A stretch of 64,000 nt of DNA from Streptomyces sp. GS7. GTDB taxonomy: Bacteria > Actinomycetota > Actinomycetes > Streptomycetales > Streptomycetaceae. A model generated the notes under the pieces. It made no database searches. It had not been told where the DNA came from and saw only the letters and a program-made list of their open reading frames with translations. Positions 476-20,797 of the stretch are shown piece after piece (position 1 is the stretch's first letter; each line of letters opens with the position of its first letter). The stretch covers positions 6,503,501 to 6,567,500 of the forward strand of contig NZ_CP047146.1 of NCBI RefSeq assembly GCF_009834125.1, written 5' to 3'. A program made the position numbers and the translations under genes.

Positions 476-508
476 CAGGCGGCACACCCGCACAGCACTG
501 CACAGCGC

Positions 509-550
509 GCCGAGAGGCCCCGGACGGAACTTCCGTCGGGGCCTCTCGGC
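509..550. terminator. Strong hairpin terminator after the pssA-like gene
   Basis: The arms are GCCGAGAGGCCCCGGACGGA and TCCGTCGGGGCCTCTCGGC, complementary along their length except for one bulged G, with a very short loop. It lies 34 bases after the stop codon. There is no U-run, which is normal for Streptomyces terminators. Confidence 0.8.
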
Positions 551-639
551 GTTCGCGGACGCGGGAGATACGGGGGCGGGGCCGGAACCGGTGCCTCCGG
601 TGCGGGCCCGGCGCCTTGGGCAGGGCGCTCCGGGCGGGC

Positions 640-662
640 CGCCGGAGGCGCCGCCTCCGGCG
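640..662. terminator. GC-rich hairpin between convergent genes
   Basis: The arms CGCCGGAGGCG and CGCCTCCGGCG are perfect inverted repeats. The hairpin sits about 50 bases beyond the end of the minus-strand glycerate kinase gene and could terminate it. Very high GC makes chance hairpins common here. Confidence 0.4.
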
Positions 663-714
663 CCCGCGGGCCGGGACCCGCCGGATCATCCCCGTCGGGC
701 CCCGGCCGGCAGGC

Positions 715-1872: not shown

Positions 1873-2059
1873 CGTGTTTCCCCTTGCTTTCGAACTGGCA
1901 GTCGCGCCGCTGCGACCTTATCCGGCCAGGGGCCCGGCGAACAGAGCGGACGGTTCCGGAACGGCCGAAGGGGGCGAAAAGGGGGACGAAGGACGACGAC
2001 CTGCAGCCCGGAACGCCCCGCGCGCACCCGGCACACCCAGCGCACCCCGAACGGGCCGC

Positions 2060-2908: not shown

Positions 2909-3043
2909 CCGCTCAGTGTCGCGCACCTCGCCCGGAGGTCGGGCCCGAGCGCGGCGGCCGGGGCCACCGGGCACCGGCACACAGCGGCCGACGAAAACCG
3001 ACACGGCGCACCCGCCCCACCCCACGTGTCCTAGGCTCGCGGC

Positions 3044-3562
3044 GTGACGACCACTGACTACGCCACCTACATCGCCGGACTGCCCCGCGTACTCGCGGGC
3101 GCGGGGGTCATCTTCCGGGACGTGGCGGGCCGCATCCTCCTCGTCGAGCCGAACTACCGCGACACCTGGGTCCTGCCCGGCGGCACCGTCGAGTCGGACA
3201 CCGGCGAGTCCCCGCGCCAGGCCGCCCGCCGGGAAACCCTTGAGGAGATCGGTCTGGACATCGCACCGGGCCCGCTGCTCGCCGTCGACTGGGTGCGCGG
3301 CTCGGCCCGGCCGCCGTTGGTGTCGTATCTGTTCGACGGCGGGGTGCTGGACGCCGAGCAGTTCGCGGCGATCCGGGTGCAGGAGGAGGAACTGCTGTCC
3401 TGGCGCCTGGTCCACTGGGACGAGGCCGAGACGATGCTGGGCGAGGGGCTGCGGCTGCGCGTCCGCGGCGCACTGGACGCGCTGGAGGGTGGACGCGGCC
3501 CGGTGGAACTGGAGGACGGCCTGCCTCCGGCCGGTCCGGCGGGCACCGGCGGTCCGCGGTGA
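3044..3562 (+). CDS. NUDIX hydrolase
   Basis: This 172-residue protein carries a Nudix box (GGTVESDTGESPRQAARRET followed by LEEIGL), two residues longer than the strict consensus between the first glycine and the first glutamate. The REtLEE core that binds the divalent metal is intact. Such enzymes hydrolyse nucleoside diphosphates linked to another group; the substrate cannot be told from sequence. The C-terminal 25 residues are Gly/Pro-rich and probably disordered. The GTG start lies 6 bases after a TAGGCT hexamer with no ribosome binding site, which suggests a leaderless transcript. Confidence 0.85.
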   Translation: MTTTDYATYIAGLPRVLAGAGVIFRDVAGRILLVEPNYRDTWVLPGGTVESDTGESPRQAARRETLEEIGLDIAPGPLLAVDWVRGSARPPLVSYLFDGGVLDAEQFAAIRVQEEELLSWRLVHWDEAETMLGEGLRLRVRGALDALEGGRGPVELEDGLPPAGPAGTGGPR

Positions 3563-3692
3563 ACGTTCGTGACACCGCGGCGCCATGACACCTCGTAGAA
3601 CCTGGGTAGGAGACCCCTGGGCCGACTCCCCCGCCCAACACCGAGACCCGTGGGGTGATTGCCTCCGCCCACCCGCGATCTAGCCTTTCCCC

Positions 3693-4508
3693 ATGAACGA
3701 AAACGCCACCCGCATCGCGCAGGTGCCGGGAGTCGTCGGGGTCATGCTCGGCGGCAGCCGCGCACGAGGAACCAACCGTCCCGATTCCGACTGGGATCTG
3801 GGCGTCTACTACCGAGGCGAACTGGATCTGCCCGCTCTGGAGAAGCTGGCGGCCGAGGTGACCGGCGGCCCCGTCGAGATATTCGCACCGGGCGCCTGGG
3901 GCCCCTGGGTCAACGGCGGGGCATGGCTGGTCATGCCGGACGGCAGCCATGTGGACTGGATCTTCCGGGACATCGACCGGGTGCGGCGCGTGTGGGAGGA
4001 CTGCCGCGCGGGCCGTTTCGAGACGGGAATACAGGCCGGACACCCCCTGGGATTCTGGTCCCCCGCCTATCCGGGCGAGGTGGCCCTGGGCCGCGTACTG
4101 GCCGACGACACCGGGGAGTTGGCCCGCCTCAAGGAGGAGACCCGGACCTATCCGGAGGCGCTCCGCAAGGCACTCACCGGCGCCGCCGTCTGGGACGCGG
4201 GATTCTCGGTGGCCATGGCCGCCAAGTCGTCCTCGACCGCGGACGTCCTGCATGCGTCCCTGTGCCTGTCGCGGGCCGTCGGCGCCCTCGTCCAGAGCCT
4301 GCACGCCCACCACGGCATCTGGTGCCTCAACGAGAAGGGCGCCCTGGCCGCCGCCGCGGCACTACCCGAGACTCCACCCGGCTTCGGCCCCCGAGCTACC
4401 GCCCTGCTCGGCGAACTGGGCTGCACGGAGGGCGAGTTGCGCCACTCCCTGTCCGTGGCGGAACAGCTGGTGGCCGAGGTACGGGAGGTGGTCGAAGCAG
4501 AGGGGTAG
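3693..4508 (+). CDS. Nucleotidyltransferase-domain protein
   Basis: A 271-residue protein with an N-terminal polymerase-beta-like nucleotidyltransferase core: GGSRARGTNRPDSDWDLGVY around residues 20-40 gives the GS...DxD metal-binding signature. The C-terminal half is helical and resembles the accessory domain of aminoglycoside-adenylyltransferase-like proteins, but the acceptor is not evident. The ATG lies 6 bases after TAGCCT and there is no Shine-Dalgarno sequence, so translation is probably leaderless. The gene stands alone between the Nudix gene and the repair genes. Its stop codon is directly followed by a TetR-like remnant. Confidence 0.8.
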   Translation: MNENATRIAQVPGVVGVMLGGSRARGTNRPDSDWDLGVYYRGELDLPALEKLAAEVTGGPVEIFAPGAWGPWVNGGAWLVMPDGSHVDWIFRDIDRVRRVWEDCRAGRFETGIQAGHPLGFWSPAYPGEVALGRVLADDTGELARLKEETRTYPEALRKALTGAAVWDAGFSVAMAAKSSSTADVLHASLCLSRAVGALVQSLHAHHGIWCLNEKGALAAAAALPETPPGFGPRATALLGELGCTEGELRHSLSVAEQLVAEVREVVEAEG

Positions 4509-4511
4509 CGA

Positions 4512-4580
4512 TCCGGGGGTGCTCGGCGGCCGCGCTGTACAAGCACTTCCGCCACAAGGAGGAGATCTGTGCGGGACCGT
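4512..4580 (+). pseudogene. Remnant of a TetR-family helix-turn-helix
   Basis: Directly after the nucleotidyltransferase stop codon, one frame reads AAALYKHFRHKEEICAG. This is the recognition-helix block (ALYxHFxxKEEL) found in almost every TetR repressor. Neither the preceding helix nor the ligand domain is present, and no start codon fits. It looks like a leftover from a deletion. The stretch is short, so a chance match is possible. Confidence 0.4.
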
Positions 4581-4613
4581 CCCCGCGTCAGGCGCCGCGT
4601 CGGGAGCCGTCGT

Positions 4614-5201
4614 TCATCCGCACTCCGCCGCCGGGAACAGTCCGTCGTCGGTGCGCTCGAAGGCGAGCAGGCGGCGCTTGCGGTCGAGGCCGCCGCCGTA
4701 GCCGGTGAGGCTGCCGTCGGCGCCGACGACGCGGTGGCAGGGGACGATGATGCCGACCGGGTTGCGTCCGTTGGCCAGGCCGACGGCGCGGGCCGCGGTG
4801 GGGACGCCGAGGCGTTCGGCGAGCCGGCCGTAGGTGAGCGTCTCGCCGTACGGGATGGTGCGCAGCGCTGCCCAGACGCGGCGCTGGAAGGGGGTGCCGC
4901 GTAGTGCCAGCGGCAGGTCGAAGGTGGTCAACTCGCCGCGGAAATAGGCGCGGAGCTGGGCGATGGTCGTGGCGAAGGGCGGGTCTGCGGGGTCGGCCGG
5001 GGTGCCGAAGGTTTCCTGGGGCGGGCGGTGGCGCTGGTCGGTCATGTAGAGGCCGGTGAGGGCGTCGCCGTCGGCCACGAGGGTGAGCGGGCCCACGGGG
5101 GTGTCGTCGAGGACGGTGTGGGTGATCCGGCCGGTGGTGGTGCCGTCCGTAGGGGGCCGGTCCGTGGTGGTCCGGTCGGGGTGCGGGGTGGCAGGGGTCA
5201 T
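4614..5201 (-). CDS. ogt: Methylated-DNA--protein-cysteine methyltransferase
   Basis: This 195-residue protein repairs O6-methylguanine by transferring the methyl group to its own cysteine. The active-site motif PCHRVVG is at residues 154-160 (Cys155), preceded by the DNA-binding helix-turn-helix [19 protein letters not shown]. The N-terminal 25 residues are Thr/Pro-rich and not conserved. The gene lies 35 bases downstream of the Ada-AlkA gene on the same strand, so the two are probably one alkylation-repair operon. This supplies the methyltransferase that the Ada-AlkA protein lacks. Confidence 0.93.
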
Positions 5202-5235
5202 GGCTGCGGCTCGGTTCGTGGGGAGGGGCGGATGG

Positions 5236-6708
5236 TCAGTTCGAGGGGAGGTGGTTGATCGGGTGGTCGTCGGTCGCCCAGAGGTACTGGACGGCGTAGG
5301 CGCGCCAGGGGCGCCAGCCGGCGGAGTGGCGGATGAGGGCCGCGGGGGTGGCGGGCATGCCGAGGCCGGCGGCGGCGCGGCGCAGGCCGAGGTCGGTGGG
5401 GGTGAAGGCGTCGGGGTCGCCGAGGGCGCGCATGGCGACGCATTCGACGGTCCAGGGGCCGATGCCGGGCAGTGCGGCGAGCCGGGCGCGGGCCTCGTCC
5501 CGGTCGCTGCCGACGCCGAGTTGCAGCGCGCCGGAGGCGAGGGCCGCGACGACGCCTGTGAGGGTGGCGCGGCGGGTACGGGGCATCGCCAGGGATTCCG
5601 GGTCGAGTTCGGCGAGGGCGGGGGCGGACGGAAAGAGGTGGGTGAGGCCGCCGGCAGGGTCGTCGACGGGCTCGCCGTGGGCGAGGACTAGTCGGCCGGC
5701 GTGGGTGCGGGCGGCGGCGGTGGAGACCTGCTGCCCGAGGACGGCGCGGACCGCGAACTCGTCGGCGTCGACGGTGCGCGGCACCCGGCGGCCGGGTGCC
5801 TTGTCGACGAGTGGTGCGAGTTGCGGGTCCGCGCGGAGGAGTCCGTCGACGGCTTCCGGGTCGGCATCGAGGTCGAGGAGGCGGCGGCAGCGGGCGATGG
5901 CGCCGGCCAGGTCGCGCAGGTCGGTGAGGGACAGACGGCAGTCGATGTGGTCGGGGCGGGGGGAGAGGGCGACGATGCCGTGTCCGTAGGGGAGGGTGAG
6001 GGTGCGGCGGTAGGCGCCGTCGCGCCATTCCTCGACTCCGGGGACGGCGGTGGCGGCGAGGTGTCCGAAGAGGTTGTCGGGGTTGAGCGGCCGGCGGAAG
6101 GGGAGCCGCAGCGTGAGGGTGCCGGGTACGGCGGTCCGCGGGCCGGGGGCGGCGCGTCCGCGGAGTTCTGAGGGGGAGAGCGCGAAGACCTCCCGAACGG
6201 TCTCGTTGAAGGTGCGGATGCTGGCGAAGCCGGCCGCGAACGCGATCTCCGCCATCGGGAGTTCGGTGGTCTCGACGAGGAGCCGGGCGGTCTGGGCGCG
6301 CTGGGCGCGGGCGAGCGCGAGCGGCCCGGCGCCGAGTTCGGCGAGCAGCTGGCGTTCGATCTGGCGGGTGCTGTAGCCGAGGCGGGCGGCGAGGCCGGGG
6401 ACGCCTTCGCGGTCGACGATGCCGTCGGCGATCAGTCGCATGGCGCGGGCGACGAGGTCGGCCCGTTCGTTCCACTGCGGGGATCCCGGGCTGGCGTCCG
6501 GGCGGCAGCGCTTGCAGGCCCGGAATCCGGCCTGCTGGGCCGCGGCGGCGCTGGGGTAGAAGCGCATGTTCTCGGGCTTGGGGGGCACGACCGGACAGCT
6601 GGGGCGGCAGTAGATGCCGGTGGTGAGCACGGCGGTGTAGAACCAGCCGTCGAAGCGGGCGTCCTTGGATTGCACGGCGCGCAGACAGCGCTCGGTGTCG
6701 GTGTGCAT
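5236..6708 (-). CDS. Ada regulatory domain fused to AlkA 3-methyladenine DNA glycosylase
   Basis: The 490-residue protein joins three modules: an Ada zinc domain with Cys34, Cys38, Cys65 and Cys68 ([10 protein letters not shown] and ACKRC), an AraC-type helix-turn-helix at about 85-180, and an AlkA glycosylase from about 190 to the end. The glycosylase has the helix-hairpin-helix [10 protein letters not shown] and the following catalytic-type aspartate in FTPTD. Ada Cys34 accepts methyl groups from phosphotriesters and turns the protein into an activator, so one polypeptide both senses and excises alkyl damage. The start at 6708 (MHTDTERC) was chosen because it begins the conserved Ada domain; an upstream in-frame start exists at 6762. 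It is the first gene of the ogt operon. Confidence 0.92.
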
Positions 6709-6762
6709 GTCCTCAAGGATTGCGCAGGAGGGCGGTCCGGGCTGGCGGAAATCCGACATCAA

Positions 6763-7116
6763 CCTTGGCGCCAGCTGCGCGGGCGGCGGATCGCTCGAAG
6801 GGAGACGCCCGCACGCCGGGCGCTACTGCGAGGCGGACGGACCCGCCCAGCGCCGTCAGACCGTGCTGCAGCGTACTGGCCGATGAACGACTGGCCGGCC
6901 GGAGCGGCCCACAGCTCGAGAACCTCGCCGCCGCTCTGGCTCCGGCTCGGGTCGAGCGGTTCCTCGCGCCCGCCGCCACTCGCGTCGACACCACTCCTCG
7001 CACCGCCCACCGGACCAGCTGCTGACCACCCCGCCCCGGCTGCAGCACGCCCCTCGCAGTCGTGTTCCCGTAGTGGAGTCGTGGGCGAGGCGGCTCCGTG
7101 GGGGCTCACTTCCTGA
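6763..7116. other. Intergenic stretch without a convincing gene
   Basis: These 354 bases separate the divergently placed repair operon promoter from the end of the phosphatase gene. Short open frames exist on both strands, but none has a recognisable motif. The part next to 6708 should contain the promoter of the Ada-AlkA gene. One plus-strand frame ending at 7025 (LADERLAGRSGPQLENLAA) has protein-like composition and may be a gene remnant, but I cannot name it. Confidence 0.5.
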
Positions 7117-8220
7117 TCAGACGGCGTGGGGAGGGCGGCGGCGCCGGGTGACCACCAAGATGGCCATGTCGTCATCGTGTTTGCCCTCGGTCCAGCGGCC
7201 AACATCCTTGGTCAGGGCATCCACCAGGGCATCGGGGTCCCTGAACCGTCTGCGCATACGCCCTGAGGAGACCGGATCATAGAAAGTCCCCCGCTTGTCC
7301 CGCGCCTCGGTGACACCGTCAGTCACCAGCAACAGCGAGGCCCCCAGGGGCAGCCGCACCACATCGACAGGCACCGAGCCGCCAGGAGCGATATCGCCCA
7401 GCCCCACCCCGAGGGGCAGCTGTGGGGCGGTCGGATCGAGCCGTACGACCTGTCCGTCGTGAACCAGATACGGGGGCGGATGCCCGCGGTTCACCAGGCT
7501 CAGCACCTCCCCGTCGGCGGAGACCTCGGCCAGCACAGCAGTGGTGAAACCCTCCGTGGAGATCACCGGGCCGCTTCGGGCCGCTGTCCTGGCCATCGCC
7601 TCGTCCATCCGCTGTCCCAACGTGGCCAAGTTGGGAGCGTACTCGGCCTCCTGACGGAACGCTCCGATCGCGACCGACACGGCGGCGACAGCCGCAATAC
7701 CTTTGCCCCGCACATCCCCGATGATCATCCGCACCCCGAACGGCGTCTCCTGCACCGCGAAGAGATCACCGCCGATACGCGCCTCGGCCTGCGCCGCCGT
7801 ATACCCGGCAGCCACGGCCAGCGGCCCCACCTCCCTCGGCGGGTCCGGAAGCGCCGCTCGCTGGACTGCCTCCGCGACATCCCTGGCCAGCGCCAGATCG
7901 CGCCCTTGCCGAACAATGAGCCGGTTGACCGCGAGAGCCAGCACGCCGATCACGCCCACCACGGCCAGATCGACGAACAACGGCGTCGCCGGACGTCCGC
8001 GTTCGATGTCCACCGCCACCGAGACCACGCACGTGACACACACGACGGCGAGCGCGGAGCGGAAGGAGAGCGTGGCGCCCGCGACGAGCGGTGCGGCGGC
8101 CAGCAGCGGGAGTCCCGTATACGGCTGGGGCGCGAAAAGGTCCAGCAGGACGCCAGCCACGAGGGCCAGCGCCGCGAGCATCCACGGCATCTTCGCCAGC
8201 GTGGGTTGCAGGACTGTCAC
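7117..8220 (-). CDS. Membrane PP2C-type (SpoIIE-like) serine/threonine phosphatase
   Basis: The protein has 367 residues. Four hydrophobic segments occupy about residues 8-105, followed by a short linker and a PP2C/SpoIIE catalytic domain (about 130-360) with ARIGGDLFAV, GDVRGKGIAA, VNRGHPPPYL and the final GKHDDDMAILVV, which supply the metal-binding aspartates. Proteins of this design in actinomycetes dephosphorylate anti-sigma-factor antagonists at the membrane; the partner here is not encoded nearby. No sensory PAS or GAF domain is present, so the membrane part may itself sense the signal. Confidence 0.88.
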   Translation of the reverse strand: MTVLQPTLAKMPWMLAALALVAGVLLDLFAPQPYTGLPLLAAAPLVAGATLSFRSALAVVCVTCVVSVAVDIERGRPATPLFVDLAVVGVIGVLALAVNRLIVRQGRDLALARDVAEAVQRAALPDPPREVGPLAVAAGYTAAQAEARIGGDLFAVQETPFGVRMIIGDVRGKGIAAVAAVSVAIGAFRQEAEYAPNLATLGQRMDEAMARTAARSGPVISTEGFTTAVLAEVSADGEVLSLVNRGHPPPYLVHDGQVVRLDPTAPQLPLGVGLGDIAPGGSVPVDVVRLPLGASLLLVTDGVTEARDKRGTFYDPVSSGRMRRRFRDPDALVDALTKDVGRWTEGKHDDDMAILVVTRRRRPPHAV

Positions 8221-8471
8221 GGTGCATCTCCTGCTGCCTGGCCTCGCTCGCGCCCCGGAAGGAACGGAGCCCCCGCACGGTTCGGCTTACCGCACCCTGT
8301 TTGTACCTCCAATGGCTTCACATATACGCCTTGTGGGCCGGATGTGCTCATCCTGGATCCACCGCGCGATAGTCGGTCTTTGGGCGGCGAAATGAGAAGA
8401 GGTGCCCGCTGACCTGGGATGAAGGGAGTTCCTACGCCCTCATCAGTCCCACGAAGCAAGGCACCTCGTAG

Positions 8472-9068
8472 GTGAAAGTCTCCTACAGCCCGGCGACGCT
8501 GTTCACCGCGTTCGACGACCCGGACCTGATCGCGCATGCCGGGTTGGTCCCGACGATCCGGCTGGCCGAGCGGTGCGGTCCGCCCTGGGTGGTGGCCGAG
8601 AAGGTGGAACTCACCGGCGCGGGGAACGGTGCCGGTACGGCAGCCGACGCGAAGACCCTGTCGATCGTGGGCGGCATGATCGCCGGGACGGACAGCATCG
8701 AGGACTTGGAGGTTCTTCGGCACGGTGACCTGTCCCGCCTGTTCGGCGGCGTGCGCGCCCCGTCCACACTCAGCAGCTTCCTGCGCGCCATCACCTGGGG
8801 CCACGTACGCCAACTGGAGTCCGCGGTGCGGGCGTTCACCTGCGCTCTCGCAGCTCACACCGGTCTGGTCCCCCGGCGGGACGAGGTGGTGTTCGTGGAC
8901 ATCGACTCCAAGGTCAAGCAGGTCTACGGCCCGGCCAAGCAGGGCGCCTCCTTCGGCTACACCGAGCAGCGCGGCCTGCACTTCCAGATCGTCTCCGTCA
9001 AGACCGCAACCTGCGCTCCCGTGATCGTGGCCACCCGGCTGCGCAAGGGCTCGGCAGGCTTGGCGTAG
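8472..9068 (+). mobile_element. IS1380-family transposase, N-terminal fragment
   Basis: About 195 residues match the N-terminal part of IS1380/DDE group 1 transposases, including VVFVDIDSKVKQVYGPAKQG with the first catalytic aspartate region. The normal protein is about 450-470 residues, so the second half is missing, together with the remaining DDE residues. The homology stops at RLRKGSAG and the frame closes 3 codons later. From there on the sequence belongs to an unrelated decayed gene on the other strand. The GTG start follows a typical IS leader from about 8395. The element is inactive and marks the left edge of the accessory region. Confidence 0.82.
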
Positions 9069-9690
9069 AGGTCGTTGTAGCTGTCATCGCCGCGCCGGCC
9101 CACCGCGGGCAGGACCTGGCTGGGGCCCTTGGGGTCCACCGCGATCTCGTTGGCGATGTTCTTGTACGGCGCACTCGGGTCATCGGCCCTGGCACCGCCC
9201 GGCAGAGAGTCCGGGTTCGGGGCGAACTCCAGCTTCCACAGCCCGGACAGCTTCGTTGCCGAGTGGGACCACACGCCACGGCTGGTGGCGGCCCACTTCG
9301 GCGAGTCCGCGAAAGGCCAGGTAGTTGCGGGGGTCACGTTCGTAGGGGGCTGAGCCTGCGGGTAGCCGGACGGCCATGAGATGGCGCGCTCGATCACCCG
9401 ACGACGACGTCGCCGTCCCCATCGCCGGACAGACTCGATGCCCGTCCTCGGTCACCATCGAGTAGAACGGCCCAACGTAGCCATCGCGATGGCACACGCG
9501 ACGATCACACCGCGGCTACCCACGTTCTCCGGCCCGAACCGGCCCAGTTGCGGGATGGGCGGATGCTGCGTCGGCAGTTCCACCATCTCGCCGTCGACCA
9601 GCGTGGCCTGCTCCGGCCAGGGAGTCTCGTCCACCAGCCACCGTCGCTCGACCGTCGGGCCTCTGCGGGTGCGGGGCATGCGCAGCGTAG
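9064..9690 (-). pseudogene. Decayed gene of unknown function, several frames
   Basis: On the minus strand three overlapping frames each carry protein-like sequence that could form one older gene. From 9679 comes WLVDETPWPEQATLVDGEMV and GRFGPENVGSRGV; then near 9490 DGYVGPFYSMVTEDGHRV; then from about 9360 WAATSRGVWSHSATKLSGLW up to VGRRGDDSYNDLY, ending at the IS1380 breakpoint near 9064. Reading them as one gene needs at least two frameshifts. I recognise no domain. The reading is tentative. Confidence 0.4.
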
Positions 9691-9888
9691 TGCTGTCCTC
9701 ACCCTCGGGCGGTGTGCAGCGGTCCGTAGATACGTTCCGACGCCAGTTCCGTCAAGTGGATCGCAGGAAACCACAAAAGGTGGCAACTAACGACCGAATA
9801 GTTGCGTCACATGTGCAGAGTTGTTCGACTAAACGACCATCCCTGACTGTGTCATGGGGATGGAACACGGGGTTTCGAGGGAGAAGGT
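9691..9888. other. Leader region of the graspetide locus
   Basis: No gene is visible. Bases 9775-9860 are distinctly richer in A/T than the surroundings, as expected for a promoter of the following two-gene unit. No clear -35/-10 pair or long palindrome was found. The XRE-type regulator often seen next to such loci is absent. Confidence 0.5.
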
Positions 9889-10080
9889 ATGCGACCGTTT
9901 GCGTTGAGCTACGCCCGTCCGGCGGTGAAGCCGGAGGCTGTCACTCCGTACACCTACGACGCCACGCGGCAACTCAACGTCCTGCCCGACGGGCGCCCGG
10001 CCACGAGCAGCCGACTGGTCCTGCTTGCTACCAGCACCACTGCCTCCACCGCCGGTTCCAAGACCCACTTCGACGACTGA
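9889..10080 (+). CDS. tgmA: Precursor peptide of an ATP-grasp-modified RiPP (graspetide)
   Basis: A 63-residue peptide with a conserved leader (RPFALSYARP at 2-11, PYTYDATRQLNVLPDGRP at 20-37) and a short C-terminal core rich in Ser/Thr that ends THFDD. This matches the putative ATP-grasp target RiPP family of actinomycetes, whose members include the fuscimiditide precursor. In graspetides the ATP-grasp enzyme joins Thr/Ser hydroxyls or Lys amines to Asp/Glu side chains; here Thr48, Ser49, Thr50, Thr51, Ser53, Thr54, Ser57, Lys58 and Thr59 are possible donors, with Asp62 and Asp63 as acceptors. A GGGAGAAGGT ribosome binding site precedes the ATG. The maturase starts 6 bases after the stop. 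Confidence 0.88.
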   Translation: MRPFALSYARPAVKPEAVTPYTYDATRQLNVLPDGRPATSSRLVLLATSTTASTAGSKTHFDD

Positions 10081-10086
10081 ACGTCG

Positions 10087-11016
10087 ATGACCGTTCTGGT
10101 CCTCACCTGTGAGGAAGACCTGACCGCGGACATGGTCGTCGCGAACCTGCACGACCTCGGTGTCCCGCTCGTCCGCCTCGATCCTGCCGATCTGCCCGGC
10201 AGGATCGACCTCTCGGCGGAATACGTCGGCAAGGGCTTCCATGGCTACCTCAAGACGAACGAACGCATGGTGAGCCTGAGCAGCCTGCGTTCGGTGTGGG
10301 TCCGCCGGCCCGGTACACCGGGTAGTCGCGCGGCGGAACAGTCGACGTGGCTCACCGAGGAGTCCGAGCAGGCGCTCTACGGCATGCTCACCGCCACCCG
10401 GGCCCGCTGGATGAACCACCCCGCGGCGGCCAGACAGGCCCGGTACAAGCCCTGGCAGCTCCATACCGCCCAGGAGAGCGGCTTCGTCGTGCCCGCCACG
10501 CTGATCACCTCGTTCCCCGCGGTCGCGCGTCAGTTCGCCGCCACGTACCAGGATCTCGTGGTCAAGTCGGTGTCCGGGAAGCACCCGGGCGACCCTCCGA
10601 TGGTGCTGCCCACCACCCGTATCAGCCCCGACGCGGACTTCACCGCTGTCGCGGCCGGCCCGACCCTGCTCCAGCAGCACGTCCGCAAACAGGCCGACAT
10701 CCGGCTGACCTGTGTCGACGGTCGACTCTTCGCCGCCCGCAAGGAGGCCGACCCCGACGAGGTGGACAGCCGCTTCACGGAGAACGGCGCCTGGAAGCCC
10801 GCCGAGGTCCCCGACCTCGTCCGCCGGTCGGTGGCCGCCTATATGAGCGCCGCCCAACTCGCCTACGGAGCATTCGACTTCGCCGAGGACGGCAGTGGGA
10901 CCTGGTGGTTCCTCGAATGCAACCAGGGCGGCCAGTTCGGTTTCATCCAGCTCGACACCGACCAGCCCATCACCCAGGCCCTCGCCGCCTGGCTGGCGGC
11001 GGCTCCCCTCGCCTGA
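10087..11016 (+). CDS. tgmB: ATP-grasp RiPP maturase (graspetide synthetase)
   Basis: The protein has 309 residues with a full ATP-grasp fold: an N-terminal pre-ATP-grasp domain, a nucleotide-binding central part with VVKSVSGKHPG (about 158-168) and DGRLFAARKEAD (211-222), and the metal/ATP site DFAEDG and FLECNQGGQF (264-284; Glu277, Asn279). It belongs to the MvdD-like peptide maturase group that makes side-chain esters or amides in a co-encoded precursor. The gene is 6 bases downstream of the precursor and clearly co-transcribed. Related loci normally have a third gene, a protein-isoaspartate-type methyltransferase; none is seen in the 800 bases downstream, so the product may lack aspartimide formation. 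Confidence 0.9.
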   Translation: MTVLVLTCEEDLTADMVVANLHDLGVPLVRLDPADLPGRIDLSAEYVGKGFHGYLKTNERMVSLSSLRSVWVRRPGTPGSRAAEQSTWLTEESEQALYGMLTATRARWMNHPAAARQARYKPWQLHTAQESGFVVPATLITSFPAVARQFAATYQDLVVKSVSGKHPGDPPMVLPTTRISPDADFTAVAAGPTLLQQHVRKQADIRLTCVDGRLFAARKEADPDEVDSRFTENGAWKPAEVPDLVRRSVAAYMSAAQLAYGAFDFAEDGSGTWWFLECNQGGQFGFIQLDTDQPITQALAAWLAAAPLA

Positions 11017-11816
11017 GGCCATGACCAGCCGTCAGGAGGTCTGCCGCGACCCCTGCGGCGAGGCCACCGGACCGTCCACCTCTTCTCGGTGCCGCCGATC
11101 GGCCTGGTCTCCTCTGCCGACTGGTGCCGTCCCCAGCCGGAACGGACACCACTCGGCGTCTTCACCGGCTTCCTCTGAGGATGCCCTGGCCTTCAGGCCA
11201 GGGAGGAATCGGACTCCTGCGGATCAGGACAGAGGAAGATGAATCACCGTCGGGGCGATTCCATCGCGCATCCGCCGCGGTGGTGAGGCGACCCACGGTG
11301 ATCACCGCGCCCAGTACATGTCCAGGCCGCCGTGCCCATGCACGTTCAGCTGCTCCCGGGCCCTCCCCCACGTCTCGCTGCCCCTGATCACGCGCCGCCG
11401 GCCTGGCAGCTGTCGCCCTCCCTTGCCGCTGCCGGCGCCGCGGCCCGGCAATCAAGTAGCGGATGCCAAGATCCGGACCGTGCACGGACCACCGCTCTCC
11501 CGACGGCAGTCACAGCCGCCATTGCAGCAGGTCGGCGCCACCATGAGCGCTGTACCACCAGCAGGCCAAGAACCTGCTGGGCGCCCCACACATGTGGGCG
11601 AGCAAGGCCGCTCGGCACCACGAAATTCCCGGCAACCTGCCACACTCGCGTAGCCAGCAGACCATCCGACCAGCGACGCAAAGCGCCTGACGCTCCATCA
11701 GAATGGGCGTCACGAGCGTCATTTCAGCGTCGAGACCTCGCCCGTAACGCCCGCACCGCACATAATGCGCACACACGAAACCGCAGGTAAGGAGCTCTTC
11801 GCGGCCCGTTCAAGGA
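11017..11816. other. Gene-poor scar region after the graspetide locus
   Basis: These 800 bases hold no convincing gene. Short frames occur on both strands but lack motifs and coding-like composition. The region contains the 11184-11203 hairpin that looks like an IS605-type end. Near 11690-11735 there are several small TGACGCT/AGCGTCA inverted repeats, and at 11779 begins a copy of an RNA-methyltransferase gene end. It is best read as layered debris of insertions and deletions. Confidence 0.6.
11184..11203. repeat. Perfect hairpin resembling the right end of an IS605/TnpB element
   Basis: CCCTGGCC-TTCA-GGCCAGGG forms an 8-bp stem with a 4-base loop, preceded by GAGGATG and followed by AGGAATC. 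The CC(N)GCCTTCAGGGC-type hairpin next to GAGGAT is the usual last hairpin of actinobacterial IS200/IS605 elements with tnpB, where it also ends the guide RNA. No tnpB gene is left upstream. It could equally serve as the terminator of the graspetide operon. Confidence 0.45.
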
Positions 11817-11832
11817 TCACAACACACGCCAC
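11779..11832 (-). repeat. Left 54-bp copy of an RNA methyltransferase gene end (att-like)
   Basis: Read on the minus strand this encodes VACVVILERAAKSS, the C-terminus of TrmA/RumA-type class I RNA methyltransferases, but the stop codon is replaced by TTA. It aligns without gaps to 20691-20744 with 42 of 54 bases identical. Most differences fall three bases apart, at codon third positions. It directly adjoins the broken end of the DUF262 gene. Confidence 0.7.
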
Positions 11833-12149
11833 GTCGCTTCGTTCTGCGGGGACGGCGCGAGCACGACGGAGCCGAGGAAATGCGTGCTCGCCGACGCACC
11901 GGAGTCCAGGAGTTCGGCCTGTTCGAGGATGTCGTTCCACAGCTGAGCGAGCTGCTTCTCCGACCAGGAGTATGTGCGCTGGTAGAGCGGGACCTGGAAC
12001 TGCTGGGTCCGGCCCTGCATCAGGTCGGCGAAGACGGTCTCTTTGGCCTGCACGGAGGTTCTCGTCGGAGGTCGGGCGGTCCGGGACGGGACGGGTACGA
12101 CTGGTGACGAAAGGACGATCTGTCTCTGGGCAACTGCGCCCTTCCTCAT
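11817..12149 (-). pseudogene. Truncated DUF262 (GmrS-like) gene following jetD
   Basis: The frame encodes the first part of a DUF262 domain: AKETVFADLMQG ... QFQVPLYQRTYSWSEKQLAQ ... STHFLGSVVLAPSP. It stops just before the DGQQR motif that full-length DUF262/GmrSD type IV restriction proteins need for nucleotide use, so it should be inactive. The ATG at 12149 overlaps the jetD stop codon as ATGA, making this the fifth gene of the Wadjet operon. A GTG at 12053 fits the usual DUF262 start better, and the 32 residues before it look unconserved. The break coincides with the left 54-bp repeat, which implies that recombination there removed the rest of the gene. Confidence 0.7.
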
Positions 12150-13390
12150 CCGAGGTCGGACAGCAGGTCGTCCAGGACCGCTTCCTCCTCCACCCGCACG
12201 CCTGAATCCGCCAACGCGCCCGCCAGGTCCGGGTCCCAGGGGGCGTCGGCCCGCGCCCCGGTGAGCGGCGGGCCGGCGGGCAGGGTGCGCACCGCGGCAC
12301 GATAGTGGGCGGCGGTATAGCGCCAGGGACTCCAGGGGACGCGGCGTAGCAGGGCGGCCGCGATGCGCAGGCCTCCCCAGTCAAAGTCCCCGTGGTAGCA
12401 CAAACCGGTGCCGTGTGTGTGGAGGTGGTGCAGGAGGGTGAGGGCAGCGGCGGACGGCTGCCCCTGGAGGCAGACCAGGGGTGCGGAATCCGCGCCGTAC
12501 GTGTCGGCGGCAGCGGCGAGCACAGCCGGGTTTTCGCAGATCCAGACCGCCGGCGGTGCTGAGGCAGGCGGGTGCCGGATCAGCTGCCGCAGGGTCAGTA
12601 CGGCGGGCTCGCCCTCGTCGGCCATCCAGTCCAGGGCTGGTGTGCCCGGCAGATTGAGGGTGAGCACGGTCGAGGAGAGTTCGTCACGCAGCAGTCCCGC
12701 CGAAGCCCACACCTCACGCCGCCACTGCGCGCCGCTGCCGTCCGGAAAGCCGGTCAGAGCCCGGACACCGGAGAGCGTGAGACTGCACAGCGGGGTTCCG
12801 TCATCCAATGCGTGTGCGTTGCCCAGCAGTTGGGACGAGAAGGTCGGCAGCGACACCGGCGGTTCCGCCGGGAGCGCGCGCAGTGCGGTCGCGGCCCGGC
12901 TGAGCAGGTCGGCCGCCGCGGCGGGGGTGCCGGCGAGGCGGCGTACCAGTCCGTCGCTCCGGAGCCGGTCGACCCAGGCATGGAGAGCAGGGACCTCCTC
13001 CGCCAGAGCCTCCACAGGGAGGTACGCCTCCTGCCATGCCCGCTGTTCCTCGGCGCGAGCCGGGCCGAGGAGTCTGACCGGACCGGTGAGCGCGACCACG
13101 GCCGCAGCCAGCCCTGCAGGGCTGATGCCGGAGCGGCGCAGGAGGTCGTCCACCGCGTCGAGCCGCACAGACAAGGACCGTCCACTGCCAGGAGCCCGCC
13201 CCAACAGCCTTTCGGCCGCTTCTCGTTGCTCTGCGGTCGGCGCGCTCAGAAGAACCGGTCCGGTGAGCGGCTGCTCACGCTCCAGGCGCCGGCGTGCACG
13301 GTCGACCAACCAGTCGAGTCCGGGGTCCCCCAGCAACCGGCGCAGCCGTACGTTGTCGGCGGTCACGGCGGGGTCGGGTGTCAGTTCCAC
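12146..13390 (-). CDS. jetD: Wadjet type II nuclease subunit JetD (DUF3323/DUF2399, Toprim)
   Basis: The 414-residue protein belongs to the TIGR02679 family. The N-terminal half is the DUF3323-type domain. The C-terminal half is a Toprim fold with Glu286 in VWICENPAVL and Asp335/Asp337 in YHGDFDWGG, the expected metal-binding residues. In Wadjet, JetD cuts the circular plasmid DNA once the JetABC motor has extruded it. The gene starts 10 bases inside the end of jetC, so the two are translationally coupled. All key residues are present, so the subunit looks functional. Confidence 0.92.
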   Translation of the reverse strand: MELTPDPAVTADNVRLRRLLGDPGLDWLVDRARRRLEREQPLTGPVLLSAPTAEQREAAERLLGRAPGSGRSLSVRLDAVDDLLRRSGISPAGLAAAVVALTGPVRLLGPARAEEQRAWQEAYLPVEALAEEVPALHAWVDRLRSDGLVRRLAGTPAAAADLLSRAATALRALPAEPPVSLPTFSSQLLGNAHALDDGTPLCSLTLSGVRALTGFPDGSGAQWRREVWASAGLLRDELSSTVLTLNLPGTPALDWMADEGEPAVLTLRQLIRHPPASAPPAVWICENPAVLAAAADTYGADSAPLVCLQGQPSAAALTLLHHLHTHGTGLCYHGDFDWGGLRIAAALLRRVPWSPWRYTAAHYRAAVRTLPAGPPLTGARADAPWDPDLAGALADSGVRVEEEAVLDDLLSDLG

Positions 13391-16300
13391 AGTGGCTCCG
13401 CTCCGGCAGGTGCTTCGGCGCTGGGCCGGGGGATCTGGTGATACTCAGGCCGCACCGGCTCCGGACCGCGCAGCCGCCGAGTGCCGTCCCATTCCCAGCG
13501 AGTGACGAGCACCGCCGCGACCTCATCGATCCGCGACAGCTGGGCGATGGCGATGCCGGGCACCTGGGGGTAGCAAGCCCACTCGCGTTCACTGGTCATC
13601 ACGACGTCGAGGTCGAAGGCATGCAGCAACCCGAGGCACTTGGCGCGCGAGTCGTCGTCCACTCCCGCGAACGCCTCGTCGAGGGTGACCAGTCGCGGCG
13701 CGTGCGGGCTGCCCGCGCTTGCGTAGTGGGAGGACGCGGCGGCGAACAGCGGCACGGAAACGGCCAGCACCCGCTCGCCGCCCGACGCGGGCCCCGTGGC
13801 CGGAACCCAACGGCCCTGCTGGTGCCGCTCGACCCCGAATTCATGCCAGGTGCGGTAGTCGAGTGCCGCGGTGAGGTGCTCCAGCCAGCTGCCCGATGCG
13901 TCGTCGGCGTGCTGGCGCGCGATCTGCTCCTGGAGGAACTCACCTACGGCTGCCCGGTCTTCGACGGTCCAGATGTCGGCCGACCTGCGCAACCGATCCC
14001 TGGCCTGAGCGAGCCCCGCGGGGGCCTTGCGGGAGGCTCGCCATACCAGCCTCAGCCGCATGCCGGTCGAGGTCGGCCGCTCCTCCAGCTCGACGTTCAT
14101 GTCCCGCACCTGCCGTTCGGCCGCGCCGATCAGCTCCTGGAGCGTGCCCGCGACCTCGGTGACCAGGTGGGTTTCCAAGATCTCCCGCTCCCGTGCGGAC
14201 AGGATGCGTGCGAGTTCGCCGACCTCGGCAGCCAGCGCGTCGGCCAGTTCCGGTACTGCGCGTTCGCGGCCCTGGTAGACGATGTCGACGACCATCCCGT
14301 CCTCCACCATCCGGGCGGAGGCGCGGTGCCCGTGCCGGGACAGCGTGTCCTGGAGGGTTTTGAGTTCCTCGCTGAGCCGACGTTGCACCCGCTCCCAAGC
14401 GCTGTCGGAGTCGTCGGTGGCGGACAGGCCCGCGTCGATGCCGCGAGCCAACGCGATGGCGGGGGTGGCTGCCCAAGCCTCGCCATCTGCGGCGGGCACC
14501 CGGATGTCGGGCAGAGCCACGCCCATCAGACCGGTCTCCGTGAACCGCTGAAGCGCGGCGATGGCCTCCGTGCGCGCCTCAGCCGCCTCCCTGAGCCCTT
14601 CGTGCAACTGCTCAATACGACCTTCGGCCTTACCAGCCGCCCGATCGGCTTCGGCATGGCGCTTACGGCTGAGACGCTGCTCGTTCTCGCAGGTGCGCAA
14701 CGCCTCCGCGGTCTGTGCCAGCATGCGCTGGAGTTCGGCGACGGCGGCGCCGACCGTGGCGCGCAAGGTGGTGAAGCGTTCGTCGGCGGCTGCCGCCTCG
14801 CTCTCCGCCTCCTTCGCGCGAGCCGCGAGCTCTGCGGCTCGCTCCGCGGCCTGGCCGGCCTCGGTGCGTTCGTCGTCCGCCTGGCCGGCCGCCTCGCCGC
14901 GCTCACGCAATGCGGGCCAGAGAGCGGCCAGCACCTCGGCGAGCGAACCGAGAGCGTCGCGCACCGCGGACAGCCCTTCCTGATCGGCGGGCAGCCTCAG
15001 ATCCTCGGCGGTCCGGGCGAGTTCGGCCGCGGCCGCCTCGCTCTGCTCAGTCGCCTCCCGCAGGGCAGCGGCCCGCTCCGCGCGCCGCGTGCTGATCCGG
15101 TGCAAGGACGCGGCGGCGGCCGTCACCCGAGCATGCGCCCGGGCGAGGGCACCTTCGTCGGGCACCTCCGCCACCTCGGCATCGAGGACGCGACGGCGGG
15201 CTGCCACGGTGGCGGCCAGGTCCGCGACGGCTGCCGACTCCTCCTGAACCTGGTCGAGTTCGGCACGGAGGGCAGCCATACGAGTCCGCCGGGCGGCTTC
15301 CCGCGCGCCCTCACCGATGTATTCAGCGGTGGCCTTGGCCCACCGGCCGGTGAGCGCACCGACCCGGAAGCGTCCATCCACAGCCGCCCAGGTTCCGGTT
15401 TCACCTTCCGGCTCGACGGCCGCCTCTCCGGCCCGTCCGACACCGATCGCGGCGAGCAGGTGGGCCACCGTGCCCTCACCCACGGCTGCGGCATCGGCGT
15501 CCTCGTGGTCCACCGCGGGGCGCAGCAGCCCCGCGAGTGACGCGCCCCGTACCGGACCCGACGCAGGGGCGAGCAGTACGTCATGGCTGTCGGCCGCGAG
15601 CACCACGCCATCGGGGAGTACCCAGGCGTCCAACAACCCGGACGCCTCCAAGGCTGCCTCCAGACCGGCGCGTTCCCCGTCGGGGAGGCCGTCCTGGAAG
15701 TCCACCAGTCTCCACAGGGGGGCGCCCGTCAGCCGCTCACGCAGACCGGGGGTGCGCGTGGACGGCGGCTGCGGCGGACGCCGCCCACCGGCCTCCAGCG
15801 CGGCCAGTTCCTGCCGCAGTCTGTCGGCCTGCTCGGTGAGTGCGCTCCGGCGCCGCGCGGCCTCGGCGGCCTGCTCGGCCAGGCGCGCGGATGCGGCACT
15901 GTGGGCACGCGCGGCCTCGGTCCGCGCCGGGTAGGAGCCGTCGAGACGGCCCACCCACTCCTGCAGTTCGTCCAGCAGCCCGGTCTCATCCGGATAGGCG
16001 AGTTCGGTCCAGCCACGGGCACGGGTACGGACCTCGTCGAGCAGTGCCCGGCCGGCGTGCGCCACCTCCTCCTCGGCCAGGCTCAGCTCAGCCGCGGCCG
16101 CGCCCCGGTCGGCATCGGCCTCATCGAGCCGGAAGGCTCGCTTGCGCCGTTCCTCCGCAGCACGGGCGGCTGCCTGGGCAAGGCTCTCCACATGGGTGAG
16201 AGCACGTCGGCCCCGCTCCACGGACTGTTCGACGGAGCCGCGCAGTTCGCCCCCGGTGAGCCCGTCCTCCCCGGGCAGGGCGACCCGGGCCGCGGCGGCC

Positions 16301-17538
16301 GCCTCGCCCGCCTGCCGATAGGTGTCCTTGACGTGCTGCTCCGCCACCCGCAGACGATTTTCGGCCGCACCGAGCCGATCCAGGCTCCTGGTGTGCAGTC
16401 GCAGTGCCTGGTCCCGGTCGCTCCGCGCACGTTCCGCGGCGTGCGCCGTGCGGTCCGTCTCGCGGTGCGCCTGGTCGAGATCCTTGGCGCTGCGCATCTC
16501 GGGGCCTTCGCGCAGAGCGGCGTCCTGGGCACGCAGCCTGCTCTGCTGTTCCTCCAGCGTGCGGGTCGACTCCGCCGCGGCCTCCCGCTCCTCCTCGGCC
16601 TTGGCCTGTTGGGCCTGCGCCTCGGCGAGGTCCCGTTGGCGGTGCTCATAGCGGGAGTGCTCGACACGGGGCAGGCGGGCGCGGCGGCGAGTGGCGATAC
16701 GGGCGTAGCGCCGGTAGTGCTCCAGGAATTCGGCGGCGGCACGCTCGGCTGCGGAGGCAGCCGCCAGTTCGGCCTTCTCCTCGTCCAGCGAACGGAACGC
16801 CTCGGCCACGTCGGCGATGACTGCCTGGTCCACGGGTGGCAGGGCCTCGGTGAGCGCGCGGGAGAGGGCTCCCTCGTTGGGGCGCTTGGACAACTGGGGC
16901 TGGCGCAGCTGGACGAGCAGGTCGACCAGGGCGCCGTAGCGCTGCTCGCCGAGCCCAAAGAGCGCCTCGTCCACGGCTCTGCGGTAAGTCCTGGCCTGGT
17001 CGTACACCATGCCATGGCCACCGACGGCTTCGATGAGACGGTCCCGCGACAGAGCCGTGCCCGTCGCGTCGACAAGGCTGAGGAACCCCTCCGCGGTGGT
17101 GCCGGGGCCATGATGGACCCGTTGGCCGGTGACCGCGTACCAGTGCCGGGCGATACCGCGCCCGCTCACCGCCTTCAGTCCGCACAGCAGCGTGCGGAAG
17201 TGCGTTTCCCCGTTGGCCGGGTCGAGTCTGCCGAACTCGATCCAGGTGTAGCCGAGACGCTCGGAGTGCGGGTGGTCACCGCCGAGCAGGAGGTTCCATT
17301 CCATCCGTTTGCCGGGGTCGCCGTCCGGTTCCACCCGTCGCGGGCTCAGGTCGGCATCGAGCAGGAAGGGCAGGGTGAGCGCGAGCACCTTGGACTTGCC
17401 GGTGCCGTTGTTGCCGCGCAGCAGCAGACGCCCGTCGCGGAAGTGGAATTCCTCCACGTCGTAGTGGAAGAGATCGACGAGCCCGATCCGGAGGGGTTGC
17501 CAGCGGGTGCGGAGCGGTTCGGGGAGTGCGGTGGTCAC
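13381..17538 (-). CDS. jetC: Wadjet type II SMC-like ATPase JetC
   Basis: This very long protein (1385 residues) is an SMC/MukB-like ATPase of the TIGR02680 family. The Walker A motif GNNGTGKS is at 42-49. Long Ala/Glu/Arg-rich coiled coils run through the middle (about 245-560 and 740-1100) around a hinge-like section. The C-terminal head has the signature SGGER at 1252-1256 and Walker B LVTLDE at about 1283-1288. The protein forms the loop-extruding motor of the complex. It starts inside the last codon of jetB (ATGA overlap) and overlaps jetD at its end. Length and motifs are complete. Confidence 0.95.
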   Translation of the reverse strand: MTTALPEPLRTRWQPLRIGLVDLFHYDVEEFHFRDGRLLLRGNNGTGKSKVLALTLPFLLDADLSPRRVEPDGDPGKRMEWNLLLGGDHPHSERLGYTWIEFGRLDPANGETHFRTLLCGLKAVSGRGIARHWYAVTGQRVHHGPGTTAEGFLSLVDATGTALSRDRLIEAVGGHGMVYDQARTYRRAVDEALFGLGEQRYGALVDLLVQLRQPQLSKRPNEGALSRALTEALPPVDQAVIADVAEAFRSLDEEKAELAAASAAERAAAEFLEHYRRYARIATRRRARLPRVEHSRYEHRQRDLAEAQAQQAKAEEEREAAAESTRTLEEQQSRLRAQDAALREGPEMRSAKDLDQAHRETDRTAHAAERARSDRDQALRLHTRSLDRLGAAENRLRVAEQHVKDTYRQAGEAAAAARVALPGEDGLTGGELRGSVEQSVERGRRALTHVESLAQAAARAAEERRKRAFRLDEADADRGAAAAELSLAEEEVAHAGRALLDEVRTRARGWTELAYPDETGLLDELQEWVGRLDGSYPARTEAARAHSAASARLAEQAAEAARRRSALTEQADRLRQELAALEAGGRRPPQPPSTRTPGLRERLTGAPLWRLVDFQDGLPDGERAGLEAALEASGLLDAWVLPDGVVLAADSHDVLLAPASGPVRGASLAGLLRPAVDHEDADAAAVGEGTVAHLLAAIGVGRAGEAAVEPEGETGTWAAVDGRFRVGALTGRWAKATAEYIGEGAREAARRTRMAALRAELDQVQEESAAVADLAATVAARRRVLDAEVAEVPDEGALARAHARVTAAAASLHRISTRRAERAAALREATEQSEAAAAELARTAEDLRLPADQEGLSAVRDALGSLAEVLAALWPALRERGEAAGQADDERTEAGQAAERAAELAARAKEAESEAAAADERFTTLRATVGAAVAELQRMLAQTAEALRTCENEQRLSRKRHAEADRAAGKAEGRIEQLHEGLREAAEARTEAIAALQRFTETGLMGVALPDIRVPAADGEAWAATPAIALARGIDAGLSATDDSDSAWERVQRRLSEELKTLQDTLSRHGHRASARMVEDGMVVDIVYQGRERAVPELADALAAEVGELARILSAREREILETHLVTEVAGTLQELIGAAERQVRDMNVELEERPTSTGMRLRLVWRASRKAPAGLAQARDRLRRSADIWTVEDRAAVGEFLQEQIARQHADDASGSWLEHLTAALDYRTWHEFGVERHQQGRWVPATGPASGGERVLAVSVPLFAAASSHYASAGSPHAPRLVTLDEAFAGVDDDSRAKCLGLLHAFDLDVVMTSEREWACYPQVPGIAIAQLSRIDEVAAVLVTRWEWDGTRRLRGPEPVRPEYHQIPRPSAEAPAGAEPLWN

Positions 17539-18770
17539 GCCTGACCGGCCTTTCGTTGTGTCGGCATGCGTAGGGTGCCGGGTTCGTGTACGACCGGTTC
17601 GCCGACCGAGTAGCGGGCCAGAGCGGGGCGGGGTTCGGCCCCGTCGGCAGTACGGGAGACGAGGCCGAGGGCGGCCAGCCGGGCGACGGCCTGCTCGGCC
17701 AGCTCGGTCTCCATGCCCGGTTCCCGTGCCGACTTGGCCCAGAATCCGCCGTGCTCGGCGGCGAGTTCCCGTACACGCTGCGCGAGTTGGTCAGCTGTGA
17801 CCGGTCCGCCGGCCCTGGCCAGGTACTCCGCGAGCAGCAAGGTGATGTGGCCGTGGGTGCCCTGCTCGGGCATCCGGACGTCGGTGAGGTCGTCCTCGGG
17901 GTCGACCATGGCGATGCCCTCAGCCCGGATCTCGGGAACCAGGCCGGTCAGGTCGGCCACACGGGCCGTGAGGAACCCCCGCTGCCGGGTGAGATAGCTG
18001 AGTTCGGCGTCACTCAGCTCGTCGTAGTAGAGCACCGGATCGTCCAGCAGTCTGCGGGTGAGTGTCTGCCGCATCGCGCGAAAGCGCAGCTCGTCGCTGT
18101 CGAGGGCGGTTTCGGCGACGAGCTGCGCCAGCCGGTCGGCGATGCTTTCAGCCTGCACCGTGGAGGGCCCACGGCGCGTCGCGAGCAGCCCTGCCAGCAC
18201 CCGTCGTTCGACGTCGTACAGCACGTCGCCGGCTCCGTTCACGTACGCGTCCTCGTCTCCGGCGACCCTGCGGAGTACCCCGAGGCTGAGCAGAAGCCGC
18301 ACGACCGCCGCGAGGTCGAGGCGCTCGTCCCGGCGGTCCAAGGCGAACTGGATGCCTGCCGCGACGAGTCGGGGGTCGGTGGCGTCTAGGACGACCTGGT
18401 CGGCGAGACGGCCTAGAGCGATCTGCGACTCGCCGCGCTCCAGGGCGGCCAGGGCCAGACAGAGCAGGACGTAGCGGCGGCGTGTGAAGGGAGCGGGGGC
18501 GCGGGTCGCCTCGCGGGCAGGATGCGTGGCGTCATTGAGCACGCCGGGGATCTTGCGCAGCCGGGCGGTCTCCGCGTCGACGTGGAGAGGCCAGCCGGTG
18601 TTGCGGTCGAACCACTCACGGAGTTCGGAGGCGTGCCGTCGCACGAGCCGGAATTCCTCCGCGTGCCTGCCGTGGGAGAGGAGGAGGGGCTGCTTCAGCA
18701 GGGCGCGGGCGGCCTTGCGGACTTCGGCGGCGTGCTGTCCGTCGAGCACCTCGGCCAGTGGCGTGGTCAT
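17535..18770 (-). CDS. jetB: Wadjet type II subunit JetB (DUF2398)
   Basis: This 411-residue protein belongs to the TIGR02678/DUF2398 family. In structures of Wadjet complexes, JetB is the small winged-helix (kite-like) protein that bridges the kleisin JetA and the JetC necks. A conserved RRRYVLLCLALAALER stretch (about residues 97-112) and WFDRNTGWPLHVD near the N-terminus are recognisable. The ATG overlaps the stop codon of jetA (ATGA) and the gene end overlaps jetC in the same way. There is no catalytic motif, as expected for a structural subunit. Confidence 0.92.
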   Translation of the reverse strand: MTTPLAEVLDGQHAAEVRKAARALLKQPLLLSHGRHAEEFRLVRRHASELREWFDRNTGWPLHVDAETARLRKIPGVLNDATHPAREATRAPAPFTRRRYVLLCLALAALERGESQIALGRLADQVVLDATDPRLVAAGIQFALDRRDERLDLAAVVRLLLSLGVLRRVAGDEDAYVNGAGDVLYDVERRVLAGLLATRRGPSTVQAESIADRLAQLVAETALDSDELRFRAMRQTLTRRLLDDPVLYYDELSDAELSYLTRQRGFLTARVADLTGLVPEIRAEGIAMVDPEDDLTDVRMPEQGTHGHITLLLAEYLARAGGPVTADQLAQRVRELAAEHGGFWAKSAREPGMETELAEQAVARLAALGLVSRTADGAEPRPALARYSVGEPVVHEPGTLRMPTQRKAGQA

Positions 18771-20341: not shown

Positions 20342-20690
20342 CAGCGGCCATTTTGCCGTGGGGGTGATGCTCCTGGGCGGGGACCAAAGCACTTGGCTGA
20401 ATCACGCCGGTAGGTGCACCGCCCGAACCCCAAGGTGCCGCCTGCTTGCCATGAGCGGCAATACGGGTCGGCTCGCGTCACAGGCTGCTCTTCAGGCCAA
20501 TGTGACGGAGCTTCAGAACATGTGTCATCTGAGCTCAGAACTCTGAGCATGCCACTGAGCCACTACCTGAGCAGGTGTCGCACCGTCCTGCATCCGCAAG
20601 GCAATCGTTTTGGGCAGCCGACGCGGCCTCCACCCGCCCTTGACCTGTCGAATGCACGGAAACAGGTCAAGGGAACCAATAGGACCGACA

Positions 20691-20775: not shown

Positions 20776-20797
20776 ACGTCTTCACTCCGTACACAAG

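Follow-up and report, generated by a model that had tools for sequence, protein, structure and literature searches.

The precursor and maturase genes and their setting

The window, by which is meant the whole 64-kb stretch of Streptomyces DNA that was analysed, contains a cassette of two genes on the forward strand, a graspetide precursor gene followed by the gene of its ATP-grasp maturase. The cassette lies in an accessory island together with the remains of other elements and a defence system. The features are:

9650-9888, + strand: upstream region common to close relatives, with a ribosome-binding site (homology, alignment)
9889-10080, + strand: graspetide precursor, 63 residues (PF14404 and TIGR04186 matches)
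10087-11016, + strand: ATP-grasp maturase (graspetide synthetase), 309 residues, complete reading frame (TIGR04187 match)
6795-20900, no strand: accessory island holding the cassette, borders approximate (comparison with relatives)
8472-9068: IS1380 transposase remnant (profile positions 3-184 of 419; 95.9 bits, cut-off 180)
11817-12149: GmrSD-type nuclease domain fragment (profile positions 2-61 of 199)
12146-20392, - strand: complete type II Wadjet system of JetA2, JetB2, JetC2 and JetD2 (models, best 480-1461 bits)

The initial annotation had described a 63-residue precursor ending in THFDD, 6 bases upstream of a complete maturase, and both the reading frames and the profiles agree with this description. 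The comparison with TIGR04186 and TIGR04187 that it proposed places both proteins above the cut-offs, the precursor with 51 bits (cut-off 25) and the maturase with 371.1 bits (cut-off 350) over profile positions 1-311 of 312. The precursor also matches PF14404 (Strep_pep) with 107.8 bits (cut-off 25) over the full profile, positions 1-63 of 63. Judged by these scores, the profile matches of both proteins are far above chance. The precursor consists of a leader (residues 1-48) with the conserved QLNVLxDG segment and a core (residues 49-63), STTASTAGSKTHFDD, the border between the two being a predicted one that was placed by conservation. The maturase retains a GAFDF motif from residue 261 and an FLECN motif from residue 275, both of which we take to be metal-ligand sites. 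The ratio dN/dS for the maturase is 0.18-0.25 in comparison with six relatives (0.20 with S. albospinus), and by this measure the gene is evolving under purifying selection.

A ribosome-binding site, AGGGAGAAGG, can be read from the sequence at 9878-9887. The point at which homology to 11 relatives begins is 9650 for S. albospinus, 9673-9681 for five others, 9721-9747 for another four and 9862 for the last, and conserved blocks are seen in the upstream region in an alignment of 11 sequences. A promoter scan found no sigma-70-type promoter upstream of the cassette, but this is weak evidence because Streptomyces promoters are often unlike the sigma-70 type that was scanned for.

The island interval of ~14 kb contains a SpoIIE-type phosphatase gene (PF07228), the IS1380 remnant, the cassette, the GmrSD fragment and the Wadjet genes, which also match TIGR02677-TIGR02680 above the cut-offs. 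The earlier description of a decayed accessory region beside a plasmid-defence island fits the remnant, the fragment and the complete Wadjet system found here. The insertion hotspot is bordered by an Ada/AlkA gene (5239-6762) on the left and a macro-domain gene (20896-21405) on the right, as identified by Pfam. Each of the ten S. lydicus-like relatives matches the left side (window 1-6794); the match is on a single contig in seven of them and divided between two contigs in three. The right side, from ~20.9 kb, has matches in all seven of the ten relatives that were examined there, and in those seven it shares one contig with the stretch left of the gap (up to ~6.76 kb). Two relatives have an empty site: G227 has ~75 bp between the counterparts of window positions 6770 and 20915, and G231 has ~140 bp between those of 6761 and 20902. 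The five other relatives examined on both sides have different content here, ranging in length from ~4.5 to ~16 kb. G224 has, already 1.3 kb away, a piece with 79% identity to the right side.

The cassette and the island site are on different contigs in all ten relatives. When the window was compared with 11 close-relative loci (those of the ten S. lydicus-like genomes and one further locus, L046), 1.14-1.37 kb was found in common, ending at 10999-11026, and in addition there was a single match of 157 bases, 70% identical, in the phosphatase gene. Among these 11 loci the flanks are largely shared in 2 of 55 pairs, and the surroundings of the ~1.35-kb cassette are mostly unrelated. A cassette that is mobile everywhere was considered and rejected, since in a wider set of 69 loci 17 of the 20 pairs whose cassettes are at least 90% identical have a quarter or more of one flank in common. 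From these comparisons relocation is characteristic of the S. lydicus-like group, or of the fast-changing regions in it, and is not proven to be a property of the cassette.

No repeats framing the cassette turned up in a repeat search. The Wadjet genes are bracketed by a direct repeat of 55 bp with 78% identity (11778-11832 and 20690-20744), both copies of which have overlapping matches at one place in G227. Two stretches of ~100 bp flank the cassette, 9296-9400 to its left and 11462-11580 to its right, and have many scattered matches of ~80-90% identity in the relatives. They are perhaps remnants of repeated elements.

Distribution and conservation of the two-gene cassette

Of 199 sampled Streptomyces genomes, 107 have a PF14404 match, which is above the cut-off in 105, and none of 14 control genomes has one. 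In a genome collection, 433 of 454 candidate stretches encode a relative of the maturase. The best 80 of these 433 and 20 loci from another search make up a set of 100 loci with maturases at least 59% identical, in which the window itself is included (as L009). At least four further strong maturase matches lie outside this set, and some species are counted twice in it (L010 and L060, for example); the number of distinct precursors is 91. Every one of the 100 loci shows this gene order, with the precursor gene directly 5' of the maturase gene. The spacer is 6 nt in 13 loci, the window included, and 13-18 nt in 78. The best 80 of the 433, the named loci with the most similar maturases, comprise 78 from Streptomyces, one from Wenjunlia (L050) and one from Actinacidiphila (L054), the last two being other Streptomycetaceae. 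A protein search gave 57 precursor clusters, including the window's own, all of which belong to PF14404.

The cassette shares with other Strep_pep systems (PF14404/TIGR04186 with TIGR04187) the length of 63 residues, the QLNVLxDG leader, the THFDD end and the adjoining maturase. The maturase also matches PDB 9bou, an MvdD-like pre-ATP-grasp domain-containing protein, with 418 bits over residues 1-305, and 196 of the 305 aligned residues are identical. Maturases of the two-gene family span 59-65% identity, and the 64% found here lies inside that span. A search of the available literature found no paper naming PDB 9bou, and a search by core motifs found no paper on a Strep_pep peptide. The one graspetide paper that the motif search gave, PMC8939145, does no more than name Strep_pep, as a family from an analysis of 2009. 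By its sequence, the locus is an ordinary, intact member of the widespread and already described Strep_pep family.

Clustering of the neighbouring genes of 81 loci gave no conserved third gene, the next cluster after maturase and precursor being present in 21 of the 81; this clustering used a crude gene caller that listed the precursor in only 40 of the 81 loci. Homologues of a DUF397/XRE/ATPase regulator set are found near 10 of 80 loci and there are none in the window. Common plasmid carriage was also considered and rejected, as the cassette was found in 1 of 72,556 plasmid records, a Streptomyces replicon of 1.16 Mb.

The core is far more conserved than the leader. The 100 loci and the 57 proteins together give 139 distinct precursor strings when the last 63 residues are compared. 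T51, S53, A55, G56, S57, T59, H60, F61 and D62 are invariant in all 139 and D63 is present in 138. The window's precursor has all ten of these residues, and its core differs from the others by ordinary variation (S49 and A52). Pairwise pN/pS in 80 loci is 0.097 for residues 49-63 and 0.045 for residues 53-63, compared with 0.49 for residues 1-48. The only acidic residues in the core are D62 and D63, so the core should allow at most two side-chain rings. As both acids are C-terminal, no loop Asp remains for an aspartimide. The expectation in the initial annotation of a product without an aspartimide is supported.

Methyltransferases near and far from the cassette

No methyltransferase gene adjoins the cassette, as had been noted earlier, and this was confirmed by tblastn and by a TIGR04188 search of the window and the chromosome. 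The tblastn search with three graspetide/PIMT-type methyltransferases gave no match in the 64-kb window. Two of the queries were S. prunicolor TIGR04188 methyltransferases (487.5 and 414.9 bits, cut-off 380) and the third was an unlinked methyltransferase relative from the window's own chromosome (312 bits). TIGR04188 gave one partial match of 27.4 bits in the window, at 61664-61834, which is 50 kb away and falls in a reading frame (61100-62074) that by eye resembles an ordinary SAM methyltransferase. Across the whole chromosome, a single contig of 9,067,183 bases, there are 11 TIGR04188 matches and none is above the cut-off. Three of these are full-length (286-312 bits) and lie more than 4 Mb off along the contig. 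Matches below the cut-off are also present in 14 of 14 control genomes. No chromosomal TIGR04188 match adjoins a maturase, and the sole other TIGR04187 match in the chromosome is partial (25.7 bits, 3.59 Mb).

One of the 100 two-gene loci, the window included in the count, has a methyltransferase match by tblastn. At least 1.4 kb on both sides of the maturase was covered for 96 of the 100 loci, with short flanks (up to 1.5 kb per side) for 20 of the 100, and a methyltransferase farther off would escape this count. The one match, in L052, reaches 366 bits with TIGR04188, just below the cut-off, and it is assigned to a separate cluster because it follows a second maturase (TIGR04187, 379 bits). 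Ten loci whose maturases are distant (33-41% identity) served as a positive control, and eight of them gave a methyltransferase match. All eight have maturases above the TIGR04187 cut-off, and the two without a methyltransferase (L035 and L038) are below it. S. prunicolor has the same two-gene locus without a methyltransferase and, elsewhere in the genome, two other TIGR04187 loci, each followed by a TIGR04188 methyltransferase above the cut-off (487.5 and 414.9 bits).

In a maturase tree of 37 rows, 24 two-gene maturases (the window's and 23 chosen from the other 99 loci) and 13 others are separated by a single branch with support of 100/100. The 13 comprise all 10 distant loci and 3 more methyltransferase-linked ones, so that 2 of the 13 are without a methyltransferase match; the enzyme of fuscimiditide itself was left out of the tree. 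The root is arbitrary, and a warning that the long branches of L035 and L038 meet does not touch the 24/13 split.

Judged by the loci compared, the two-gene Strep_pep family seems not to include a third gene. The initial annotation had called the locus fuscimiditide-type and lacking "its" methyltransferase, and this part of it is not upheld, given the single match in 100 loci, the separate branch with 100/100 support and the core without a loop Asp. The TIGR04187 profile covers both kinds of locus, and this explains the mix-up with the fuscimiditide type. A methyltransferase should not be presumed from a TIGR04187 match, and the two-gene branch shows no sign of one.

Two side observations were made in these loci. 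S. samsunensis (L052, 4884-10153) has a Strep_pep locus of the two-gene kind within ~5 kb of a maturase locus that is linked to a methyltransferase, with DUF397 and DUF5753/HTH genes between the two. L035 and L038 reach 326 and 303 bits with TIGR04187 and may form a further graspetide branch.

The predicted product and its possible role

The reading preferred here, which is very likely, is that of an intact, ordinary two-gene Strep_pep cassette whose maturase makes a bicyclic diester peptide without an aspartimide, with a protease elsewhere removing the leader. Family membership, intactness, conservation and the absence of a methyltransferase attributable to the cassette are what was observed in the loci examined. 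The bond type, the number of rings and the removal of the leader are expected because of known graspetide chemistry. The maturase would bind the precursor leader via the conserved QLNVLxDG segment and would spend ATP on activating the C-terminal D62 and D63 at their side chains. These would then be joined to hydroxyl side chains of the core, for which T51, S53, S57 and T59 are the invariant candidates, and the hydroxyl donors are probably among the invariant core residues. Closure of two side-chain esters would make the peptide bicyclic and lower its mass by 36 Da. It would carry no aspartimide, and the leader would be cut off by a protease encoded elsewhere. Residue counts are the basis for the predicted number of rings and for their partners. 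A link through the C-terminal carboxylate is suggested for another graspetide in a passage of PMC10787088, and by analogy this carboxylate could be a further acceptor in the Strep_pep peptide.

A likely relative among known peptides is prunipeptin, which a title in the reference list of PMC13097080 describes as a bicyclic peptide of Streptomyces prunicolor. The section of PMC11888242 on its cluster family gives 3,589 members, of which 3,572 (99.53%) are in Streptomyces. In the species of prunipeptin (BGC0002725), S. prunicolor NBRC 13075 has at locus L112 a 63-residue precursor of the present kind and a maturase with no methyltransferase, and of the three TIGR04187 loci of S. prunicolor this methyltransferase-free one resembles the window's cassette. 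The word bicyclic fits the two Asp acceptors of the present core. The product is probably of the prunipeptin family.

The likeness to fuscimiditide and amycolimiditide is confined to the ATP-grasp maturase and the ester links, which are expected here. According to the parts of PMC12291112 and PMC13001092 that concern them, these two have a PIMT-type methyltransferase and an aspartimide; the present locus has neither. Group 13 graspetides almost always co-occur with a methyltransferase (PMC13097080), their products carry an aspartimide and a loop of 10-12 residues (PMC12291112), and the graspimiditide methyltransferase acts on Asp (PMC13001092). It might be argued that the window holds a locus of this group 13 type that lost its methyltransferase, as its maturase is above the TIGR04187 cut-off like eight methyltransferase-linked ones and no methyltransferase is near the cassette. 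This is extremely improbable. The absence is common to the related loci, with one match in 100 that lies beside a second maturase, and the maturase branches apart, on the other side of the 100/100 branch, from the methyltransferase-linked maturases of other loci, eight of which match TIGR04187. The core, moreover, has no loop Asp. Membership in group 13 was rejected on the same three grounds (no methyltransferase, no loop Asp, the branch), and recent loss was rejected because 1 of the 100 related loci has a match and the window has none. No loss of a methyltransferase need be assumed, because the two-gene relatives share the absence and both kinds of locus coexist in S. prunicolor.

The chromosome has three unlinked full-length methyltransferases, which reach 286-312 bits against a cut-off of 380, and one of these could in principle act from a distance and give the Strep_pep peptide an aspartimide or isoaspartate. 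That such an enzyme acts on this peptide is very improbable, however, since the three lie more than 4 Mb off along the contig with no maturase beside any of them, two of them have a small Asp-containing reading frame just 5' that could be their own substrate, and the sole acids of the core are the two presumed cross-link acceptors. Somewhat different is the suggestion that the cassette is a silent remnant, its reading frames intact in a decayed region and no longer expressed or matured. The IS1380 remnant and the GmrSD fragment among the neighbours speak for this, as does the promoter scan, which found no sigma-70-type site. It is nevertheless improbable, given that every invariant core residue is present, that dN/dS of the maturase is 0.20 against S. 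albospinus, and that the conserved upstream blocks and the ribosome-binding site are retained.

The two unlinked methyltransferase genes with a small Asp-containing reading frame just 5' are at 6402-7769 (- strand) of L127 and 7358-8682 (+ strand) of L129. The small reading frames contain MGKKGG.. and MGKHGD.. and have no Pfam match. These pairs recall the two-gene type I pamtides as presented in part of PMC10787088.

A puzzle is that about half of the sampled Streptomyces species have this ribosomal peptide, with a drifting leader and with ten core residues that are practically fixed. The near-invariant core points to one fixed partner, such as a conserved protease or receptor, and not to an arms race. 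It is possible, as a tentative suggestion, that the peptide is not a weapon and has a single fixed partner, acting as a conserved signal of Streptomyces or as the regulator of an endogenous protease. If so, the core would be almost invariant while the 1.35-kb cassette (upstream region, precursor and maturase) moves between unrelated accessory sites, and the S. lydicus-like species would nearly all carry the same peptide, each at a different place.

Variation within the core is found at residues 54 and 58. Residue 58 is K in 123, Q in 8 and A in 8 of the 139 distinct precursors. Lys58 as an obligatory cross-link donor was rejected on the basis of these 16 Q or A cases, and the alternative of a Lys amide in the initial annotation is likewise disfavoured as an obligatory link. 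At residue 54, 135 of the 139 have T and the other 4 have K, so that this residue was also rejected as an obligatory hydroxyl donor; each of the four Lys54 cases has Ala58. This core variant, TTTSKAGSATHFDD, is found in the precursors of L010 (= L060), L063, L068 and L087, as if the lysine had moved, and it provides a natural test of ester versus amide formation at residue 54.
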